From assembly GCA_030998015.1 (NCBI GenBank), contig JARWMV010000232.1:2914001-2978000 (forward strand): 64,000 nucleotides of DNA, given 5' to 3'. The notes under the pieces are model-generated. The model saw only the letters and a list, made by a program, of their open reading frames with translations. It had not been told where the DNA came from and searched no databases. Position numbers and translations under genes: made by a program. Origin of the DNA: Ceratorhiza oryzae-sativae (Eukaryota > Basidiomycota > Agaricomycetes > Cantharellales > Ceratobasidiaceae). Shown here one piece after another: positions 28,717 to 48,829 of this stretch (position 1 is its first letter; every line of letters begins with the position of its first letter).

Positions 28717-28724
28717 CTGAACCC
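28717..28724. repeat. 8 bp target-site duplication, left copy
   Basis: CTGAACCC directly before the left terminal repeat; the identical octamer stands directly after the right terminal repeat at 36886-36893. Confidence 0.9.
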
Positions 28725-28744
28725 TAGGCTCGTGACCAGCCGTC
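28725..28744 (+). repeat. Left terminal inverted repeat
   Basis: TAGGCTCGTGACCAGCCGTC; the right end read inward on the opposite strand is the same except T for G at position 15. Confidence 0.88.
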
Positions 28745-28856
28745 GTAGCAAGTTGACCTGTGCCATTCCGGGGAGATTACAAAAGATAGAGCCACGAGGC
28801 AATCATCAAAGAAGCAGATAAGTCAGGGAACAGGTCAACTTGCTACGACGGCTGGT
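28735..28856. repeat. Left-end hairpin of the transposon
   Basis: 28735-28761 and 28830-28856 are perfect 27 bp inverted copies (outer arm begins ACCAGCCGTCGTAGC) with a 68 bp spacer. The outer arm overlaps the terminal repeat. Confidence 0.85.
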
Positions 28857-29298
28857 ACAATTCACCTAATGAGTTCGGCCGAACGAGTTCGGACGAGGTT
28901 AAAGTTCAGTTGCGGGTTGACTTGGAGGATTCGGCCTCGGCGCTTATATGGCATCCGTGACTTCGCGGGAAGCTTGTATATTAATCATATAGTACACGGA
29001 CGCCCTAAGATATCAGACTGTATGACAACGTAAATATAGCTGGCTGAAGGCTATCACCTTACTTCTCTAGACAGGGGAGTTGGATCCGGGTAGGACGCCA
29101 GTGGAAACTCAGTTGCCCAGTTGTAGGATGAGCCGGATCAGGTCTGAACCTTTTTTGTTTGTATATAATTTACACTCAAACTGATTTTTGGGCTTAAACC
29201 GCAATAAACTAACGAGGAACATCGTTCGACCAAAAATACATACATCACGATCTGGTCACTAACTCACGTGATATGTATTTGCTGTCACGGCGTTCGCG

Positions 29299-32200
29299 TT
29301 AGGTCTCATTTTCCCTACCCAAGTCGAAATCCTCGTCCAGCTCTAACCCGTAAACCATATCCCATACATCTGCTATGTCGACATCTAAACTCACGTCCTC
29401 TTCGCTCTCCAGTGGTAGTCTTGCGTCGAGCAGCTCTTCTTCAGCTAGCACATCCTGGCCGTCGTCGCTGTCGTCGCTTGCGTCATCAGGTTCGTTGTTC
29501 TCCCAGTCAACCTTCATCGAGGGCAAATTTGGGATCTAATAGAGATATAATAGTTTGTCTTGATCATGAACCGAGCGTATCTGGTCGTACTTACGTTTGT
29601 AGATAGTGAGTTTCTTGATGAAGCTCGAGTTGCAGCAACAGCACCAGGATGACGAGGTAAGGCTGTATGAGGAATAGTGTGGGCAATATCGGGGCCTCGG
29701 TAAGCGTTTTGTCTCGTTTTGAAATCCTTGTTGTATTCTCCTAAACCCGACATGTTACCCCATAATAGGCTCTCAAGGCCGAGGCTCTGTGTATCAGCGA
29801 TTGGCTCGCATTTGTTGTCAAAGGTTCGTCCCTCTTTAATATCATGAACTTCGTACTTCTCCAGGCTCTCCATTATTTTCAGAATGTCCCGCATCTTGTC
29901 CGGAGACGAATGACGAGAGGTTCGGTAGTTTCCGATCATATCGTTGAAGTCCTTCGTAAGTGTTCGTAACGCACCGATACATGGTGTGATCATAGTGAGC
30001 CACTCCCAAGTCTCGTTACTTCCGTGCGCACTGTACACTCGCTAAAGACAGGTTAGCACATATTTTAAACATCTGACTCGACTTAACTCACTTTGATCCA
30101 ATAAATCAGGTGCTCTTGTACGAGGTCTAACTCGACGAACGCTTTTGGTCGGCCTGTCGGGTTTGCTAACCAGTTTTGGAGTATCAAGTCGCTGTAACAT
30201 CTAGCTATCATATAGACTCATAATAATATAGCGGGAATCTTACCGTAGCTTTGGCGGCCACACAACTTCGCAATAATGGATGAGTTGCAAGAGCGCGCGG
30301 GCATATTGAGGACGACCTGATCCTCGGAAGGAGAGCGCGAATAGTTTCAATACACTAAGTACACGACCAGAATGTCCGCATTTGACCGCATCAAATAGCT
30401 CTTCAAGATTGAGTGCATCTCGTAAGAAGTATACAGCACCTTCGTAAACCATATCACCAGCTTTAGTACCAGAATCAGCATACAGACGATCGCTTTGAAG
30501 CTTTGAGGCACAAGCTGTATTGATGTATGAGTCGTAAAGTACCTCCGCATCGCAAAGCAGCTGTTCCCATGACGGTTTGCATTCAGATTCCTCGGTAGAA
30601 GCAGTGGAATCGCACGCTTGTAGGCGGGCCAAGTAACTCTCAAGAGTCTTGCACTCGGAAACGCGAAGCAAGCAATGAATGATTCGAGCACCAAGCAAGT
30701 CCATAATAAGGTCCTTGGCGACGGCAAATGGTGGTAGAGATGTCGCTACGAAAGGCTTTCTTTCGAGTATGCTATTGTGGAAAAAGAGCGACGCAGGAGC
30801 GGTTTCTCCAGCTGTCGGACTACCAAGGTGAGTAGTCAGGACGCTAACGACTGCAGCCATTTTCGTATGGAATAGACCTAGCACGTATTCTAAGTTACCA
30901 AGGGAATTCTTTAGTTCTTCTTGCCCCATTCGAGTGTTTTGAGCACCATCCAAATTCAAACCAGATTTAAGATCGCCAGACACGAGAATAATATCTTGAA
31001 CGAACTCCTTAGCATCAATATCTATTTCAAGCTCTTTGAATATCGCTTCAAAGACTGATATTACTCCACTGATTGATGATTCATCGATATCCATGGCTGG
31101 GAGTGGATAGAAGTTCGTTGTATGCGCTTCGATTACCGGGGGTACAAGTGGCTGCGAGCTATCGAGCGTAGTCCAATAATCCTTGAAACACTCTCCACCA
31201 TACTTCAAGATCATGTGTACAATTGCATGCGTCATGAGCTTTCGATGTGTCTCTCGTTCTGTTTCGTTATGAAGGACATGATCTGGCTCGAGAGGCCCAG
31301 CAGCAGCAAACGCCGACCTAGCTGCAGAATAATCGAGAGACTCTTCCGTCGCATCATGAAGCTCGAATAGTGTTGCACAAGTCCCGTTTTCTTGTGAGTC
31401 TAAAGTGTAATTGTTAGTATATTGTCGGGCACAAAAAGATTAAGCCTAAATGGCTGGTATGATAATCATATGAAGTACGTACCCGTACGCCCAAGAGTTT
31501 GCTGCGCTGACTTCAGGACGAAATTAATATTATCGAATATTACGCCATGGCGACGTGTCTTCCAGCGCTTTTTGGTCAATTTGCGGCACCCGTTTGCAAG
31601 CATCTTAACCGCCCCAACTGAAGGGTGCGACCTAGCCTGAGCATCCGTCTTGGGTGCTGAGTCCAAATGTTGTCCGGCTTTATCAGTATTGGAGTGTGGT
31701 GTGCCCCGGTCGGTTTTTCCTCGTATAAGATTACTGTAGGAAGTTAGAGTGCCGAGGTGGGACAAAATGTCATATCCTTGACGTTGAAGTCCTATTCCAA
31801 ACATGTAAAGTCCAAGGCACGTTTGAAGCAAATTATTCCTGCGACTGTGCTGCCGTAGAAGCACTGTGATAGCGCATAAGATCGCCTGCGTGCCACAATC
31901 AAACACGTTGATCTAAATATTGATTGGGTCATGTTGCTCACTGTTTGTCCCACCCGTGACACTTCGCTCAACCTCCTCCGCGCACCCACAGGCGTTACAA
32001 AATCCAGCATCATCCGGATTGTTCGAGGGCATGTACTTTTGACCACCTCAAGTATATTGCTGACCTTGAAGCTTTTGTGTAGGTACTCGGGATCAATTTT
32101 ATCTTCCGAAGTTCGAAGTGCACCACTGGCCGTCGCTTTCTTTGCTTCGGCACGAAGCTCGCCTCCAACGTATCGACGTATCCACCTAAGAAACAGGCGT

Positions 32201-32865
32201 CGGCCAGGCTCGCTCTGATGAGAATGAGCCCAGTATCCTAGCAGCGTTTGAACCTCGTTTGTGTGTGCCCAGAAATGTTGATTTCGAAGTTTCGTGGCAT
32301 CGTTGCGACGCTTCGGATTAAACACGAAGAGGAGAAGTTCAGTAAATGTCTTTTCGTAGCTGGTGAGCTTCTCTATTAGTTCTTCAAACAGGATTAATAA
32401 GATATCCTTTTCATTCGCTTGCTTGAGGTTTGGCGCCGCGTGATCTGAACCTGTTGCTGATCTTGCCTGGATTGATTGGACTGATTGAATCACAGTGAGT
32501 AGTTGTATATTTAACTAAAATCTTACCTTCGGATTTGATGTGCGCTTGGATTTTCCTCGCTTTGGCTTCAGATCGGTTGACTTTTGGGAACCTGATAGGC
32601 CTCGTGTTAAACCCGGTGGGGGTTTTCCATTTGTTTGTTGAGAACCAAGAACTGGTACGAGTATATTAATACTGATATGCATAGGTGTAACAATCGGTTC
32701 ACCGCTGTTACTTCTACTGGCCTCATCTTCTGTTTCGGACTCCTGTTGTCCGGAACCGTATGTTTGGTGTAACGAACACGTTAGAGCATGCCATCTACAC
32801 ACCGTAAGCCAGTCTTCCTCCATCACCACCTCCAAATAATCTGATTCTGAGTCTTCGAAACTCAT
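29299..32865 (-). CDS. DUF6589-type protein, candidate transposase
   Basis: Seven exons (32865-32527, 32466-31942, 31885-31483, 31399-30244, 30191-30092, 30041-29595, 29535-29299), introns 50-83 bp; 3207 bp, 1068 residues, frame intact. The likeness to the basidiomycete DUF6589 family is seen in RHGVIFDNINFVLKSAQQTL, YGGECFKDYWTTL, YARALLQLIHYCEVVWPPKL, LILQNWLANPTGRPKAFVEL, DLVQEHLIYWIK and GSNETWEWLTMITPCIGALR. The N-terminus is acidic then basic (KPKRGKSKR) and the C-terminus is strongly acidic (DDASDDSDDGQD). The family occurs in many Agaricomycete genomes and has no assigned function that I know. Being one of only two genes inside a defined transposon, it is the best candidate for the DNA-cutting enzyme; I could not assign a catalytic triad by eye. 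The fixed Asp/Glu residues of the middle region (FDNIN, ELDLVQEH) are the places to look. Confidence 0.85.
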
Positions 32866-33217
32866 TTTCAGTAAGAGACTCTCCTAGTAATCCAAGGATG
32901 GCGATGAATCTCTGCTATGCAGATTGCCAGGACCCAAACATAAGCCTCTAATCATTTTTTGCTCAAGCGGTTCTGATTAGCGTACTTTTCTCAGCTATCC
33001 TGTTTATTCCCAAATACTCAAGAATCGTGAATGGTTTGAGAACTCAGGTGTGTAAATACTAGTGTCAGGATAAGAGACATGAGCTAGCGCGCTTTAATTT
33101 CCCACTTTAGGATGCCGCAGACTTTACCACTTTTGATTAATTTCATCTCCTGCTGATTCCGCCCGCTACCCTACCCCGTAACCTCATTCCTCCTGTGCAC
33201 TGTACAATTCCAACATT
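32866..33217. promoter_or_regulatory. Divergent promoter inside the transposon
   Basis: 352 bp between the start codons of the DUF6589 gene and the helicase gene, so both must be driven from here. No clear TATA box; the last 60 bases before the helicase are C/T-rich. Confidence 0.5.
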
Positions 33218-36079
33218 ATGCCATCACAATTAAACAACATATTAACCCCATCCGTCCGAAGCAATTACAAAACTTTGGAGCAGCTCATTTGTCAGAACTT
33301 TGGGTGGAAATCCGCACACCAGTTCCAAATCGATGGAACGCTACTTCAGTTGCTCCGTTACGATACAATTGTTCATGTTGGAACTGGGCGTGGAAAGACT
33401 GCTGTGGCCGCAGGTCCATTTGTACTTGCAGAGAATGCAAAGAAGCTGTCAATTGTGGTCTCGCCGCTGGTGGTTTTACAAGAGGAGATGGTAAGCCCAG
33501 AATTTATATGTGAAATATGGCACGTCAAATTTGGATAGCTAACTAGTTTAAAAGAAGGACACATTTCAGAATACTTTCAACCTGCGAGCGATTGTAATCA
33601 ACAGTAATACAACATCAAGTCTTTCGGAAATTTTACTGGCAAGCAAAGATTCTGTTTTCTAGTCTTTGAAACATGCTAAACTGTTCATAGGATATAAAAT
33701 CCGGAGGGATTCGCATTATACTAATATCACCTGAAACGCTCCTCTCCCGCCGCATCATCGATGGGCTCCTCAGAGATCCAGAGATCTCAAAAATGGTTTT
33801 CTCCATTATAATAGACGAAGCGCACTGTGTTTCGTTTTGGAGTGATACATTTCGCAAGAAATATGGTGCGCTTCACCTCATTCGACCCTTCCTCCCTCGA
33901 CATACCCCAATTGTTGCACTGTCGGCTACACTCACACCCCGTGTGCGACGCGACATAATCACCAAATTGAACTTATCTTCAACCCACATATTCATCAACG
34001 AAGGAAACGACAAGCCCAACCTCACTGTTATTACTGCACGAGCCAAGTACCCACTCATATCATTATACGACCTTGCATTTCTCATCCCTTTGATCACATT
34101 TCATCCTCTCGACATCCCAGTAACCATGGTGTATGCAGATAATATTGATGTTGGTCAGCGCATTGTGCGCTTTCTCATCTCACTTCCGCCGCCTCATCTC
34201 CAAAATGCTGGAATTATTCGCCCATATAATGCACGACTCACTCAGTGTTACCGAGCCCTCGCTATGAAAGACTTACAAGCAGGCAATATTCGAGTGCTTG
34301 TATGCACTGATGCGGCGGGAATGGTGAGTGTAATAAAACCATGACTGTTGCGCTAGCTGATACAAGAACTAATTTGCAGGGCTGCGATCTCTCCAATATT
34401 GAACGTGTGGTCCAATGGCGGGTGGTTGGCCTTTCTGCTCTTATACAGCGTTGGGGTCGAAGCGGCAGATCTGGAGAAAGGGCTCTTGGTATTCTTCTCT
34501 ATGAGCCCTCTGCTGAAAAGGTCAATCCCACGCGTCCAGGATCTCAGTCAACTCAGAACGCTCAAACTCCAGGCAAAAAGCGACGTCAGCGCCGAGCGCT
34601 TCTCAAGGGAGGGTTTCGGTCAAGTGTTGCTGGTGCTGAACCTGACCTACAGGACGACTCACCTGGTGAAGGCGTGTATGCATTGATACAAACAAACGGC
34701 TGTCGACGAAGAATCTGGAATAAAGTATATGGAAACGAACCAGTTGGTATGTGTATCTCGCCGCAATATCTATACGCCCAGCTAATTCAAGCTTGATACG
34801 AGCAGAGCTGACTGTCCCTTGCTGCGACCGTTGCGAACCTAGCGTGCTCGATCATATCAAAACTACTAAACCGCCTATGGAGCGGAAGGCTAAGCTACCG
34901 CCAAGGGGCATTCCATTCAAACCAGCACAGCGCCAGCTCGCTGAATGGCGTGATGCCGTTCTCAAACGTGACTTCAAAGGCGTGACTTGGGCTTCGAGTG
35001 CTATCCTTCCCCACGAAACAATTGAATCGCTCACGTCGTACGGCCCAATAGGTACTACTGAGCTATTTGAGCAGCTAGTACGTGGGAAAGCTGAGCATAA
35101 ATGGTGGGAAACCTACAGTCAGGAGCTAGGCAATCTAGTGCTTGGGCTACATATTGAGTACGTGCCTCTCCCTCCAAAGCCAAAGAAACGCGTACTCGAT
35201 TTGTTACCTGAAAACGACGCAAACAAGCGCGCCAAGAGTATGCACACTCCAAAAGCTGGCGACTCTACTTGCACAGAAGTAGTATCGACTCAAGCTCACA
35301 GCTTTCGAGTCAACGCGCAGCCTCCGTCATCTAGCATGGAAATCGATCCCCCGCAAGCGCCATCCATGATGACAAATTTTTCAATAAATTTCGACTCAGC
35401 GCCAGCCCCGGCCCAGCCCCACATTTATCACCCTTTTGCCGAGACTCAGATTACGCCTCCGACCACCACCCAACCTCGATATCCCACATATCCCACATAC
35501 CCCACATACCCAACTCCACAATACCTGTATCCCACATACCCAAACTCAGCATGCCTGCAGTCGAATCCTTCATACGAGCATAACACGGCTCACACGCCCT
35601 ATTCCTATGTGATGCCTTCTACGCCCTGGAGGGAAGTGCAATCCTACGGGCCACACACGCAGGGAGACCGAACCTCTGAGGCCACATATCATCAAGCTTA
35701 TCCGATTAATACACAAGAAGCACACCAGGTGAGAACATGTTTTGGCCCTTTTATTTGATTGACAAGTAGTCCAACTATTCTAGGACTTGTACGGCGTTGT
35801 CCAACAGAATGCAGTTCAAAGCATCCCGACTTTAACCACATGGAATCGTAATCAGGTACGCCATATAAATCCCTACGTTATGCGATCGGTTTACCAATAC
35901 TCGCAATATAGTATCAGTCGAGCCAATCTACGAGTCGCCCGGGCCCCCAAATACTGTCACACGCTTCAACATCGAACTCCGAACAAGCTGCTCGTCCGGC
36001 TGCCCAGCAATCGGCGCCTCGGAATTCCCCATACCCCGATTACTGCTCGACTTTCCGCGTTTACGGTTCGCAGCAATGA
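33218..36079 (+). CDS. RecQ-like superfamily 2 helicase of the transposon
   Basis: Seven exons (33218-33490, 33570-33638, 33691-34323, 34380-34746, 34806-35728, 35784-35855, 35912-36079), 2505 bp, 834 residues, frame intact. Helicase motifs in order: a motif 0-like start (FGWKSAHQFQIDGTLLQLL), motif I GTGRGKT, motif Ia region IVVSPLVVLQEEM, motif II DEAHCVSFW (the RecQ form), motif III ALSATLT, motif IV region MVYADNIDVGQR, motif V region VLVCTDAAGMGCD and motif VI QRWGRSGRSGER. After the helicase core come a CCDRC pair resembling half a zinc site and a long Pro/Tyr/Ser-rich tail with a run of YPT repeats (about 35479-35550). RQC and HRDC domains are not evident, so it is not the host's own RecQ. 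Intron 2 (33639-33690) uses a GC-AG border. It probably unwinds or remodels element ends or repair intermediates during movement. Confidence 0.85.
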
Positions 36080-36668
36080 AGCTACAATTTGTTTAGGCTT
36101 GTGTATGTACAAGAATCAATCAATTGCTGGTATCCGTTCAGAGGGCAGGCAAGGCAATCTAAACCTTTGAGATCTGGCTAGCCTAGGAATCGAACTTACG
36201 TTAAAAAAAGTTAAGCGCAGCAAGCCCACTACGCTATTACGATGTCACAAGTAGACAACATGTGATGTTATATATCACACGACCTACTTCGGGGCTTGCC
36301 GACACGGTTGTGACTGTCCCTGCGGTCACACGCCTCGTTGTCAGGACTAGTTCTATCCACTGACAAACTAAAATGTCGCCCACACAAAATCGCCCCGACA
36401 GATTGATACCGTTCAATCGGTATATGCTTAGCATTGTATCCTACATACATCTAAATCCACTGATTCGATCACTGGGCACCGTTAAGGCTCTCAAATGTTG
36501 ATTCTACATGATTCTGGGCAACATCAGCATCGAATTCCCCGGGTTCCGTTCAGTAGGTTCGTAATAACCAGGCAAAACTTCTCTTGAACTCATTGTAATT
36601 GAAAACATTACAACCAGTTGTAATCAGGAGTAATCGAAAATCACAGCCGAACTGATTACCCCAATTAC
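36080..36668. other. Right internal flank of the transposon
   Basis: Non-coding stretch between the helicase stop and the right-end hairpin. It includes a GTAATC-rich patch (36588-36660). A pair of Pol III box-like words at 36186-36236 was examined and rejected. Confidence 0.4.
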
Positions 36669-36875
36669 ACCAGCCGTCTCGCCAGCTCGACCTGGTACCC
36701 CGACTTGGATGCCTCCCTGTGGCTGTCGCGTGGAAGAACTACCTCTCATGGTAAGTCATCAGCTAACCCCTGTCCTCGTGTTGATCTTACTCCATTATGC
36801 CATATTTAGAGTATATACACAAATAAAACCGCGCCAGCGGGAAGGACACCAGGTCGAGCTGGCGAGACGGATGGT
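36669..36875. repeat. Right-end hairpin of the transposon
   Basis: 36669-36696 (ACCAGCCGTCTCGCCAGCTC...) and 36848-36875 are 28 bp inverted copies with one mismatch and a 151 bp spacer. The outer arm runs into the terminal repeat. The arm is related to the left-end arm (about 19 of 26 positions). Confidence 0.85.
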
Positions 36876-36885
36876 CACGAGCCTA
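36866..36885 (-). repeat. Right terminal inverted repeat
   Basis: Read on the reverse strand: TAGGCTCGTGACCATCCGTC, one mismatch to the left end. Confidence 0.88.
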
Positions 36886-36893
36886 CTGAACCC
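36886..36893. repeat. 8 bp target-site duplication, right copy
   Basis: CTGAACCC, identical to 28717-28724. Confidence 0.9.
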
Positions 36894-42923: not shown

Positions 42924-44014
42924 ATGCGTTTCTCACTCTACTCGGTAGCGGCGTCATTAGCACTATTTTTGTTAGTCGAAATCAATATATATGTGTGTGT
43001 TGATTTTAATAACATCTGCTTTCATTACAGTACTAGTACATGGGCGGGAGACGTTGTTGGCAGGATAGAGTGGAATGATGCGTGTCCCAGTGAGTTTTTG
43101 TGGTGGTACGCGTCGAATGAGTGGCCAAAACTTATATACGATAAGGTATATCCGAGTTAAAACCTCACACGGTTGTCGTGCTGGATGGTGGGGCATATTC
43201 CGCTGGCGTGAGACGGTCGGGAGACTTTGTTTTGTAAGTCCTGTCTCATGGGATTCCAAAGTAGGCGATACTGAGGCATTTTCGGTGGTTGGTTTTCAGT
43301 GAAGATGTCGCAGACGGAGCATACGTGCTGAGCGTATTGGCGCCGGACCATGTGTTTGAATTTGTGAGTGGCTGCCGTTGGACTGTTTGGCTTTTTGGAA
43401 GCGCAAGGTCTAAGATGGAACAAAGCACTTCATGGCTCGGCAGCATTGCCGGAATAGAGATTGACGCGCCTTTGCATTCTTAGGTTCGCATAGACGTCGA
43501 GAACACGACAGTCTCAGCACGTCCCCATGTCCTTGGGACACCGTTTGAGCTCTCTGCCAACGGACCAACTCTGCCATATCCCCTGGTGTTGTCCGCCCGA
43601 GCCAAAAACTTGTATTTTGTACCTCGTGAGGGGTTCAACGTGGCGGGAATGTTTCAAAACCCGGTACGTGCGGATGGCATCGAGTCTGAAACTTGAGCTG
43701 ACTGCGCCGGGCGCTGGGTCAGATGATGATGATGATGGTCATCACGGGCGCGATGGTGTTGTTCATGCCCAAGCTGATGGTGAGTTTGGCGGGACTGGGT
43801 TTGAGGCGGGCGCTGAAGGGCGTGGATGTAGGAGAGCATGGGCGACGAGATGAAACAAGAGATCGAACAAAAGAGACAGGAGATGCTTGGTGTGGGACCG
43901 GGGCCGGCGCCTGGGCTGCCGCGGGGCCTGGACGTGGGGGAAGCGCGCGAGCGCTGGGCGGAGGAGGCAAGGGCGGCAAGGGCGGGCGACGGAAGAAGTA
44001 GCGCATGTGTATAG
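42924..44014 (+). CDS. ER membrane protein complex subunit 7
   Basis: Seven exons (42924-42970, 43031-43089, 43146-43233, 43300-43363, 43484-43663, 43723-43779, 43832-44014), 225 residues, phases consistent. Order: a signal peptide (MRFSLYSVAASLALF), then TWAGDVVGRIEW, LKPHTVVVLDGGAYSAGVRR and DGAYVLSVLAPDHVFEF (the beta-sandwich of EMC7), VRIDVENTTVSARPH, LPYPLVLSARAKNLYFVPRE, and NPMMMMMVITGAMVLFMPKL, the single membrane helix. The tail is ESMGDEMKQEIEQKRQEM. EMC7 belongs to the complex that inserts multi-pass and tail-anchored proteins into the ER; this subunit is mostly lumenal. The C-terminal 40 residues are uncertain: in another frame the same bases encode a Gly-Lys-rich end (stop at 43999-44001) that looks more natural, so an indel in the tail is possible. 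Confidence 0.88.
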
Positions 44015-44631
44015 TCTGCGAATGTACGGGGTGATGCCCAGAGAGACGGGCACCTGCGCTCATTGGGTCGCCGGTCGAGAGGAGCAGCCGGGGTCCAGCA
44101 GGGCCGTCCGACGGATGCAAGTCACTCAGGGTCCTCGCTCTGAGCCATGGAGAAGAGCACAACGGAAAGTGTGCAGGTCGGCTTTTGCACTCTTGTTCTC
44201 TGCGCGCCCCCGCCGACCGACCGTGCGCGCCGTCCTACACACGCATACAGCCGACTGCGCGCGTCTGCCCCGCGCTTCTGCCTGCGTTGTCGGGCACACC
44301 TCTGCTCTGCTGCTCGCCTGCACGCCCACCCAGCCCCACGTCGCAGCCTGTGCGCGCCGCTGTCTTCGGCGACGCTCCCAGGCTTGTCTCGTCGCCCGGA
44401 CACGGCCCGCGCCTGGTCGGGCGGTTGTTTGTGGCCGTCGCGCAGTGCATACGCCCCGGCCGTGCGCCACGCGCGTCGTCGCCCGTGCAGCATACCCAGC
44501 CAGCGCTACTCTGCTCGGACCGCCACCCAACATCGGCATCTGACTCCGACCCTCTCCGCGTTCGCTTTCTTCCCAGCCACATCTACCACCTCCCTCCCCT
44601 CCCCCGCCCCCCGCCTGGCCCCCCTCCCACG

Positions 44632-47600
44632 ATGCCCCTCGTCCGCCGCAAGCAGGTCGCGATGCACCCTGTGCCCGCCGAGCTCGCGGCCAACCCAAAC
44701 GACACGCGCGAGGTCTTTTACCTCGAGGAGACGGGCGAAATCTTTCTCGACTACGAGTGAGTCTTGTTTCTCGTGCTCGTCCTCCACCTCTCCGTCATCC
44801 TGTGCACGTGTGCGTGACGCATCTGGGTCGGACCTCGTTCCCACCCTGGGTGCCTCGCTATCCACGTCCACCACTGCGCATCATTCGCCCCTCAATCCGT
44901 GCTCACGCTCTTCCAGATCCTACGCCTCCCGCATGACCTTTTACAAGATGAAGGTCTTCCAGTGCGAGACCACAGGCAAGGGTGGCCTCGACTATTTCCA
45001 GGCCCTCCAGTCTGAACAAAATGAAGCAACCACTCTGCTCGCACGCTTCCCAGAGCCACTCAAGGCTGCCGTCCTGAGGTCCGTTCAATGGCGTACGTTT
45101 ATCTTTCGCCTTTTTTGCCTGGCCCCGAATTCATCGCTCTCGCGTTCCTAGAGGTTGTCGGGAGACTGGATAGTCTCGTCGATCAGGTCTACGATCGCTA
45201 CGTAGACCGATACCATGCTGGCGAGAGTGAGTGTTGATCGAAGTTGCCAGCTGAGATCCTCAGGCTAACCCATTTACAGAAATCTTTGTTGATGTTCAAG
45301 GCGAAAAGTTGGCCCCCACTCCCGTTTCATTCCACGTATCTTGCTCACCAGTTTTGAACCACAGGTACTGGGCCCGCATACTCAAGGTCTTTCCACCGAA
45401 AGCACTCTTGGCCTCTTATTCCTCTCCATATCCCAACCACGTATCATCCTCAACAAACCCACTTGGCCTGTCTCCTCTCAACCCAAACTCGCGACCAAAC
45501 GGCCTGTCACCCCTCAATCCCAACTCGCTCCTAAATTCGGCCCCGCCTCCACAGGTTGACAGCGCCTCGATCGCTCATCGCATAGGTGGGGACCTGAGCA
45601 TCCCTATTGCCGACGCATTTGCAAAGGACGATCCCGCTGCGTACTTTTACCAAGTCCAGCTGATCGAGGAGGGAGATGAGGAAGACATGGGTGCACCGGG
45701 CGAGCAGAACGGGAATGGACTGGGCGGAAGTAGTGCTGGGACCAAGTGGGCTGGTAGCACGATGGAGGTCCAGATGGGTGTCATGAGGTGCTTACAATCT
45801 GCATTTCATCAAATTAATAGAATAATGCTGAGCTTTACCTTTGCTAGTCGAGATCGTCTTGCATTTAGCAAGTCGATACTTCGTCGATTCATTCGAGAAT
45901 GTGTGACCCGTGACGCGGCTATTGCTTCACCCTGGTGTGTGAAGCCCGCGTTGGCTCTAAGATACGGCCTTGAGACCGAGATGCCTAGTATGTTGCTGGG
46001 TTTTTCTCGTTAGGCGCTGCTACGCACTGACCTGTCACTTCTAGTCGCAATGCGCAAGAGCGCCGAGCGGGTCAAGGCCGGCGAGCTGGAAAAGCGCAAA
46101 AAGGTCTGGGAAGAAAAGGAAGAGAGAGAGCGGCCATCCAAAAAGCCGAAAAAGCTTGGAGAAGATAGCGGTAGGTCCCTGTCCGTTGCTTGCATTCATA
46201 TTGCTCAACTTGCGTTTTCGTAACAGACAACAGTCGTCCTCAATCGAAAATCAAAGAAACACCCACCCCAGCTCCTGTGCGACGGTATCCCATCGAGGAT
46301 TTGGATGTTGTTCTTACAGACCGAGACCGAAAGGTGCGTAAAATGACAAGTCGTTTGTTTTCAGTTATTTACACCATTTATGCAGGCTGGACGACTGGAA
46401 GTACGGCCACCGTTTAGCCGCGATGTGCCGTTTGCAGAATGGGGCCCAGGCGGCTGCGAAAAGTTCTTAGCCGTCTGGTTCGTGTTGACGACATTCAGGT
46501 GGGATTTTTGGTCTTGTGACTGGATCGGGTTGATACTGATTGCTAGCCCCTTAGCAAACCGCTACAATTGAGCTTCTTCACCATGGACGAATTCGAACAG
46601 GCTCTCAATCATGTCTACACCCCACCAACCCAGAACCGTACCCCTCGACCTGTTACCATGATCGCCGAGATCCATGTGATGCTTCTCACGCATATTCGGG
46701 ACCGGGCTGAAAAGCCAGGGACGGGACCGAGGCGCGAAGCAATAGCATCTCTCGAGACACAAAGTGACCGGATGATCGCCTCGACAGACGGACAGTCGTT
46801 TGCCGGCCATGCAAATCTATCAAACGCATGGTCTGAATTTGACCGGAAACAATATATAAAGACGAGCGGAGCCGAGGAGGATATGCAAGCCCATGTGTGG
46901 AGAACCAAGTTGGGGGGGATCAAGTACAGGGAGGTGGAGATTCGAGATATCATTGATGATGAGCGAATCAACGACTATGATAATTGGAGGGAAGAGGATA
47001 TGGGTGGGGTTGACGAGCGATCTGGATGGGAAGGAGTGTTGTTGGGATGCTTGATGGAGGTGAGTCACCCCATTTTTGATCAAATGCGACCGAAATTGAG
47101 ATTTTTGTGGCAGTATGCGTCGACGGAAACGTTCCCGCGTTTAAGATCCGTTGTCATGCAGCTTCTTTTCCCTCCGAGTGTGCCAGGTCGAGCTCCCGTC
47201 CAGTCGGACGCACCCAAGATCGCAACGCTCGACGAACCCGAATCAGACTCGGACGAGTATGATATTCGTCCGGACGAAGACGGCGACCTAACCCAGGATG
47301 TTCGCTGGGGCTGGGCGGCGCTCACTCCAAGGGACAAGCTGGAGATTCTAGCGTTTTTAGCGGATTTAGTCATGATCAGCCGGAGCGTGCGCTCGTTTAT
47401 GGAAGAGTGCGATGCCCGACTGACGACGTTGCGAAAGGAAAAGATTGAGGTCAACCGAGAGAGGAAGCGAGTGTGAGTGATTGGGTTTAATTTTTTTTAC
47501 TTTTCGTTTAAATTAATGGAACGGTTATAGTGCGGAGTTGTTGGAGGAATCGGGCGTATCAGTATCAAAGATGGAAGAAAAGATGAATGGGACCAACGCT

Positions 47601-48829
47601 GAACTCGACGAGCTCGGTGCAGAGGGATCTGAGCCTGGGTCCAAGTCCGCTACGCCCTTGCCCGAGTCTGGCACTACGACCCGGCGAAAGTCGCGAAACG
47701 CGACTGCACCGAGCTCGACCGCAGGAAGCACACCCGACCCCCACCCCGTCAACCCACGGGCAGCTGCGCGCGCACAAGCGGCCGAGCACAAGGGCCTCGT
47801 CAAGGCACGCCAGGCACACATCGAAGAGGCTGCACGGCTCGAGAAGCAGCTTGCCGAGATTGAGCGCGAGTTTCGGCAGCTCTTGGGTGCGACGCGAATG
47901 AAACCGCTGGGGAAAGATCGGTTTTATAATCGCATATGGTGGTTTGATGGAATCGCTGGTGTTGGGAAAGGTGTGGGCGATGGCAAGGGAACCAAGGGCA
48001 AGGGGAAAGCGATCGAAAAGGAGAGAGAGAGGGAGGCGCAGGGGGTTGGGAGGATATTCATCCAAGGGCCAGAAAGGGGGGAGTGGGAATATGTTATGGC
48101 CGGACGGGACGAGCGCATCGTGCGTGCTCGACGGGCTGGGGAGGAAGGAGAGGGATGTATGCTGGAACCAGGAGAGTGGGCGATGTATTCGGAGCCAGAG
48201 CAGGTGAGCATCGTTTCTATTGATATCGCCTCAAAGGTTTTGCATGTCATTTCGCAATGGTTCTGGGCGTTTCCTGCCTAAAAACCGAGACGGGTGCTAT
48301 TGAGTAACTACTGAGATGGGCGGCAGTCGGGCTGGGCGGCGATCGAGGGATTGGTATTGAGCTGGGTGTGGAGTTCTTGATCCGGACGCGATACTGATCA
48401 ACTGTGTCTGGACAGATCGAAGAGTTTATTGCTTGGCTTAATCCCAAGGGTACGCGAGAGCTACATCTGAAAAACGCGCTGGCCAAGTGGGGCGAGCCGC
48501 TGATGGCAGCGGTTGGGAAACGCAGTGCTGTGAGTGAACAATCATATGGTTTTCCTTTTCCGGGCCTGGGCGGATCTTGCGAAGGCGGCCGATCTGTCTG
48601 TGATACCGACGGCACGCGTATCAGCAGTTCGCCCGGGTGGAAGTGGGGATGGATGGGCTCGAGCTCTCGGGCTTGTAGATAGACGCTGACGCTATCGCAC
48701 GTGCAGGACATATCGGGAGTCGCGCGCGGACAGGGAGGCGAGACGAGGCGTAGCAGTCGTGTGAAGGCCGGTGCGGGGGATGCCCTGCGCGACTCTTACC
48801 TCTCGTGGACAAACAAGCGGACTAGGTAG
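44632..48829 (+). CDS. Itc1/ACF1-type ISWI remodeler subunit (WAC and DDT domains)
   Basis: 13 exons from 44632 to 48829, introns mostly 47-75 bp with two long ones near the start and end; 3144 bp, 1047 residues, phases consistent. The N-terminal WAC domain reads MPLVRRKQVAMHPVPAEL, REVFYLEETGEIFLDYESYA and SRMTFYKMKVFQCETTGKGG. The DDT region includes PFAEWGPGGCEKFLAVWF and KPLQLSFFTMDEFEQALNH. Acidic and coiled-coil parts follow (EAARLEKQLAEIEREFRQLL), then a WHIM-like end (PLGKDRFYNRIWWFDGI, IEEFIAWLNPKGTRELHLKN). Such proteins anchor the ISWI ATPase and set nucleosome spacing in the nucleus. The stretch 47060-47113 reads open but has a full GTGAGT...CAG border and interrupts the conserved CLME/YASTETFPRL; I treat it as an intron. 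The leader at 44100-44630 is very GC-rich. Confidence 0.88.

Follow-up and report, generated by a model that had tools for sequence, protein, structure and literature searches.

Within a 64,000-nucleotide stretch of the genome of the basidiomycete Ceratorhiza oryzae-sativae (the whole of which we call the window), positions 28725-36885 hold an intact-looking class II transposable element, in which terminal inverted repeats (TIRs) and a flanking target duplication accompany two genes, one for a protein of the DUF6589 family and the other for a RecQ-like helicase. The 20 bp TIRs match at 19 of 20 positions and start TAGGCTCGTGACCA, so that the tips of the element read TAG...CTA; with up to three mismatches allowed the window has no other match to them, and 100 shuffles returned none. 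Directly outside both lies an exact copy of CTGAACCC. An earlier note on this DNA had reported the repeats, the perfect 8 bp duplication and two divergent intact genes between them, all of which held when the sequence was re-read, the repeats shuffle-tested and the genes spliced by hand and searched for Pfam domains. The features are listed below, including paired subterminal arms of 27-28 nt at each end, a point absent from that note.

28717..28724, no strand: left target site duplication CTGAACCC, 8 bp, the same in sequence as 36886-36893
28725..28744, + strand: left TIR TAGGCTCGTGACCAGCCGTC, with 0 chance matches in 100 shuffles
28735..28761, + strand: left subterminal inverted repeat, outer arm, co-varying with the inner arm across copies
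28830..28856, - strand: left subterminal inverted repeat, inner arm, co-varying across copies
29299..32865, - strand: DUF6589 gene, proposed DDE transposase of 1080 amino acids (PF20231, E=2e-111)
32865-32527, 32466-31942, 31912-31483, 31399-30244, 30200-30092, 30041-29595 and 29535-29299, - strand: DUF6589 exons, hand-spliced, the donor of intron 2 uncertain
32866..33217, no strand: intergenic region between the divergent genes, a candidate two-way promoter by its position
33218..36079, + strand: RecQ-family helicase gene, 834 amino acids (Pfam DEAD and Helicase_C)
33218-33490, 33570-33638, 33691-34323, 34380-34746, 34806-35728, 35784-35855 and 35912-36079, + strand: helicase exons, hand-spliced
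36669..36696, + strand: right subterminal inverted repeat, inner arm, co-varying across copies
36848..36875, - strand: right subterminal inverted repeat, outer arm, co-varying across copies
36866..36885, - strand: right TIR TAGGCTCGTGACCATCCGTC, with 0 chance matches in 100 shuffles
36886..36893, no strand: right target site duplication CTGAACCC, read from the sequence

The two genes are divergent, their starts 352 bp apart, and both are multi-exon with frames open throughout, the exon joins having been set by hand from open frames and splice signals alone. The second helicase intron requires a GC donor (after exon 2), and the second DUF6589 intron could use any of three in-frame donors (29, 41 or 50 nt), giving a protein of 1080, 1076 or 1073 amino acids. 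At the Pfam threshold used throughout for the window proteins (E<=0.1), the DUF6589 protein matches PF20231 alone, a family listed as of unknown function. The helicase carries RecQ-type core motifs, and its nearest solved relatives in the PDB are RecQ, WRN, RecQ5 and BLM (E down to 2e-26); it matches the NCBIfam model recQ_fam (TIGR00614) at E 7e-42, yet under the curated cut-off, and Pfam found DEAD, Helicase_C and a weak ResIII only, with neither RQC nor HRDC. No third gene was seen inside the element.

This element has company. The genome surveyed (48.8 Mb in 253 contigs, given here as C-numbers) holds at least 51 PF20231 exon matches and at least 56 helicase exon matches, collapsed by hand to 26 and 30 loci, respectively. 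A helicase match lies within 8 kb at 22 of the 26 DUF6589 loci, where random placement would be expected to yield 0.25; 13 of these pairs are divergent and nine convergent. DUF6589 genes without such a neighbour are those on C9 (helicase 17 kb off), C51, C3:185150 and C55, the last near the start of its contig and with a close copy at C237:94766 that has its paired helicase, while eight helicase loci have no DUF6589 gene within 8 kb.

The paired elements fall into three lineages, A, B and C, with termini of the form TAGNCTC common to all, and across them gene lineage and end sequence go together. Lineage A, that of the window element, has the end TAGGCTCGTGACC, whose exact 14-mer occurs eight times in the genome against none for the reversed control; its 20-mer at up to three mismatches gave 17 matches versus 10 in the control, so matches this loose mean little and were used only at C237:84966, where the end is backed by 80% identity across about 350 bases. 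The lineage B end, TAGTCTCTTCCAC, has 19 genome matches at up to two mismatches (control 0), and three helicases of this lineage share 33-35% identity with that of the window along the best stretch. In lineage C the genes converge, and the TIRs, about 176-182 bp long, start TAGACTCCTTCC. A search of the genome for the terminal repeat, and for DUF6589 and helicase pairs between such repeats and duplications, had been proposed in the earlier note, with the lack of any other copy to count against it; the search returned many elements with matching ends, pairs at those 22 of 26 loci and duplicated flanks in nine of ten elements. The note's further suggestion, that repetition elsewhere would explain the abundance of DUF6589 genes, agrees with the many such elements in this same genome.

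Both ends were read in ten elements, the window's included, and in nine of them direct repeats of 7-9 bp abut TAG/CTA (9 bp in four, 8 bp in four and 7 bp in one), the tenth having none. The repeats are CTGAACCC in the window, CGGGCAC on C233, CCTTTAAAT on C251, TATGGATCT on C243, GATCTCAAG at C235a, TCCGGGTG at C232:1437932-1443451, CACTAGAC at about 13800-19321 of C83, CAAAAATC at C235b and GGCAAAACT on C10. The exception, C237:84966-93718, has both ends but adjoins another copy back to back, with unmatched flanks. Three copies (C235a, C235b and C10) are 99.7-100% identical along 3.6 kb, identity stopping exactly at TAGTCTC; they occupy different sites, each with its own target duplication. 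The breakpoints of near-identical copies are thus the tips of the TIRs, and their flanks are unrelated save for the short repeats. From near identity, different sites and separate duplications, the sequences indicate that the family moved recently.

Other copies are less tidy. One end only was found at C66/C250, C55 and C232:2374285. C66:72798 (L002) and C250:19387 (L008) have a common flank and the first ~40 bases of an A-type left end before they diverge, and are likely alternative assemblies or alleles of one site, one of them with a truncated copy. Elements of lineages A and B cluster, some of them nested, at C237:57600-101659 (L006, L007, L018, L022, L026, L027, L035, L042), where TIRs abut each other at C237:57789/57813 and two lineage A copies stand back to back around C237:84966, 98% identical along 3.8 kb. 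The ends at C237:57960 and C237:76426 were rejected as one element, being 18.5 kb apart with unmatched flanks. TIR-like matches at base 431 of both C74 and C237 have no adjoining telomere repeats and no element gene. In the window itself, the right junction between element and flank (36877-36891) recurs as an inverted copy of 15 nt (93%) at 36548-36562, 314 nt inside the right end, which is either chance or the remnant of a self-insertion.

What, then, does the moving? Predicted structures of one fungal and one animal DUF6589 protein, the fungal model being P0001 (75% identical to the window protein), match, above background, only DDE transposases (Hermes, P element, Transib and others), the best being those of Hermes (hAT) and the P element, in comparisons by Foldseek and VIA tables, outside which further families may still match. 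The models contain a predicted RNase H-like core with an aspartate in strand 1 (DNI/DNV), a second after strand 4 (GD) and a glutamate in the last helix (QEH), at D330, D489 and E758 in P0001 numbering. A long all-helical insert precedes the glutamate, as in hAT, P, Transib and RAG, and a further helical insert lies between strands 2 and 3. Located by profile (a regular-expression scan had missed lineage C), this D/D/E triad persists across the family, from fungal to sponge proteins. From these structural matches and the conserved triad, DUF6589 is very probably the transposase, of DDE type. We hold with considerable confidence that this is a cut-and-paste DNA transposon, apparently autonomous, in which DUF6589 acts as DDE transposase and, less surely, the helicase as its partner; DUF6589 would cut at the ends of the TIRs and then insert with a stagger of 8-9 bp. 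In the earlier note a class II element that brings its own helicase was proposed, DUF6589 being its transposase or the core partner of one; the predicted fold, the triad and the multi-copy elements bear this out. One limit concerns the empty site holding one CTGAACCC, which the note had proposed to seek by comparing strains: a joined-flank search of this one assembly found only the two occupied flanks.

The helicase as a core partner is a weaker inference, drawn from the persistence of its pairing with DUF6589 through deep divergence. Thirty-eight public DUF6589 proteins were retrieved, the closest from Ceratobasidium and many Agaricomycetes among them, and nine of these sit on a contig equal in length to that of a helicase match among the best 120 of 1428, apparently the same contig, the organism agreeing by eye in all nine. 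We take these pairs to belong to Cantharellales, Polyporales and Russulales. Two have adjacent locus tags for DUF6589 and helicase (FRC07_013844/013843 and RhiJN_10416/10415), and with pairs across these organisms the association looks old. Distance matrices of the two proteins correlate (r=0.951, p=0.0002, nine pairs, namely eight of the public pairs plus the window, P0002/P0045 being left out since P0045 is partial), a result confounded by species relationships and unused as support. The probable task of the helicase is to open the ends, where the subterminal inverted repeats could fold into hairpins, or else to process the gaps that excision leaves.

Other divisions of labour were weighed. 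DUF6589 and the helicase might be passengers, with an unrelated transposase (a hAT or KDZ enzyme, say) recognising the ends and moving the element in trans; hAT, Zisupton and Dileera also make 8 bp duplications (as given in the available text of PMC12730594) and one-ended copies exist, but the pair is kept in three lineages with different ends that track gene lineage, no third gene was seen in the window element and DUF6589 has the modelled fold of a DDE transposase, which leaves this reading very unlikely. The helicase might instead be the mobiliser, by a rolling-circle or peel-off route akin to that of Helitrons, with DUF6589 as the accessory. Its presence at 22 of 26 loci and the hairpin-like subterminal repeats of lineage A would suit such a role, which is nonetheless highly improbable: paired TIRs and duplications of 7-9 bp (nine of ten elements) are foreign to Helitrons, and Pfam found no HUH nuclease in either protein, observations on which a Helitron was likewise rejected. 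A host gene cluster lying between unrelated repeats, its TIRs and duplications due to coincidence or segmental duplication, can point to the nested, duplicated stretch with several copies on C237, but was set aside as scarcely credible, since near-identical copies break at TIR tips with flanks otherwise unrelated and chance TIR matches in the window numbered 0 in 100 shuffles, so that it is already contradicted unless the junctions are assembly errors.

To which class the DUF6589 transposon belongs was judged against published families, as they are described in the available portions of the cited texts. AcademH is said to have been placed in the Academ superfamily by Kojima in 2020. It is a helicase-encoding lineage with target duplications of 9 or 10 bp (PMC10045372), present in Basidiomycota and other fungi (PMC10799480). 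The DUF6589 elements are like it in encoding a helicase (22 of 26 loci) and in having target duplications of two adjacent lengths (PMC10045372, PMC10799480), and unlike it in that these are 8 or 9 bp, with one of 7, AcademH being compared by description only. In animals, DUF6589 occurs in sponges, a cnidarian, bivalves and amphioxus, a range that overlaps the bivalve expansion of Academ (PMC10294476). Membership of AcademH, or of its close kin, appears the likeliest class, and we think it reasonably probable. An XPG nuclease fused to animal DUF6589, which might have tied it to AcademX, was found in none of nine scanned proteins and nowhere in the Pfam column of 54 matches, one of which bears PF27041. 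The animal consensus (P0159, alignment A2) opens with a cysteine-rich module, MxxCxxC...CxxC, not seen in the fungal consensus, and the animal protein P0200 has a weak zf-AD match under the cut-off.

Kolobok elements target TTAA. KolobokH is a fungal DNA transposon that carries a RecQ helicase, as here, but downstream of the transposase domain, whereas the DUF6589 elements carry it as a separate, oppositely oriented gene; Kolobok-1_CCri of a red alga, with RecQ on the complementary strand, resembles this arrangement, so Kolobok as a whole remains a candidate (PMC9587614). The likeness to hAT (Hermes) and P lies in the closest structural matches, the 8 bp duplication (as in four of the ten elements) and the helical insert within the RNase H core, and the difference in the additional helical insert, that between strands 2 and 3. 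In DUF6589 Pfam found neither a hAT nor a P domain, and neither the dimerisation domain of hAT nor a BED finger, and membership of hAT by sequence was rejected for want of a match. The consensus termini of hAT differ from the TAGNC of DUF6589 elements and, to our knowledge, hAT and P transposons carry no helicase gene. KDZ and Plavaka have Pfam models, and PF20231 was the sole match of the DUF6589 protein. Of the KDZ group, Zisupton and Dileera duplicate 8 bp and Kyakuja 7 bp, and Plavaka duplicates 2-3 bp; KDZ/Plavaka of Agaricomycetes are, like the present elements, abundant fungal DNA transposons with accessory enzymes, but the accessory gene studied in the available text is TET/JBP (PMC12730594). 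In Agaricus bisporus var. burnettii, multi-copy subtelomeric RecQ-like proteins consist of the helicase core only, their role left open by the authors in the text available (PMC7473861), and may be the same thing as the DUF6589 partner. The element kind is therefore probably already known under another name: of the earlier note's proposal, a transposon with a helicase is supported, but the kind had been published as AcademH and KolobokH (PMC10045372, PMC9587614). Nothing in the literature searched named DUF6589 as a transposase, the strings PF20231, IPR046496 and DUF6589 turning up only under unrelated-looking titles, and this link seems new.

So, it seems, is the co-variation, from copy to copy, of the arms in the subterminal inverted repeats. 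Eight of ten lineage A ends have inverted arms of 26-31 nt spaced 67-151 nt apart, with scores of 20-27 where the highest among 20 base-composition shuffles per end was 8-11; the two without (C250 and C232:2374285) keep only ~40 bases of the end. Across the eight, some of them closely related, facing positions are Watson-Crick at 197 of 208, two or more pair types occur at 13 of 26 arm positions, and mismatches average 1.4 within ends versus 7.1 between them; in the window element, left and right arms differ from each other and are complementary inside each end. Either pairing is under selection, or repair has copied one arm onto the other. Most ends of lineages B and C have repeats that are short or score no higher than the shuffle maximum (the C83 row, its start offset by two bases, was excluded), so they are not general. 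That DUF6589 elements form a superfamily of their own, with the arms at lineage A ends recognised by pairing rather than by letters and a RecQ helicase opening the end so that the hairpin forms, is a speculative and rather unlikely reading which, if true, would be a new mode of recognition for eukaryotic DDE transposons.

Elsewhere in the window, large open frames at 44000-48300 (+) recall a WAC/DDT-type chromatin-remodelling protein, which we presume to be a host gene.

If DUF6589 is a DDE transposase, a block of 'hypothetical' genes would be reassigned to mobile DNA, and part of the RecQ-like helicases in mushroom genomes would be transposon cargo. DUF6589 as the mover may account for the abundance of these genes in mushrooms and in some animals. 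With a compact element and three near-identical copies with clean duplications, activity is open to direct test, and the lasting association of a RecQ helicase with a DDE transposase prompts a testable question, namely why a cut-and-paste element would need a helicase.
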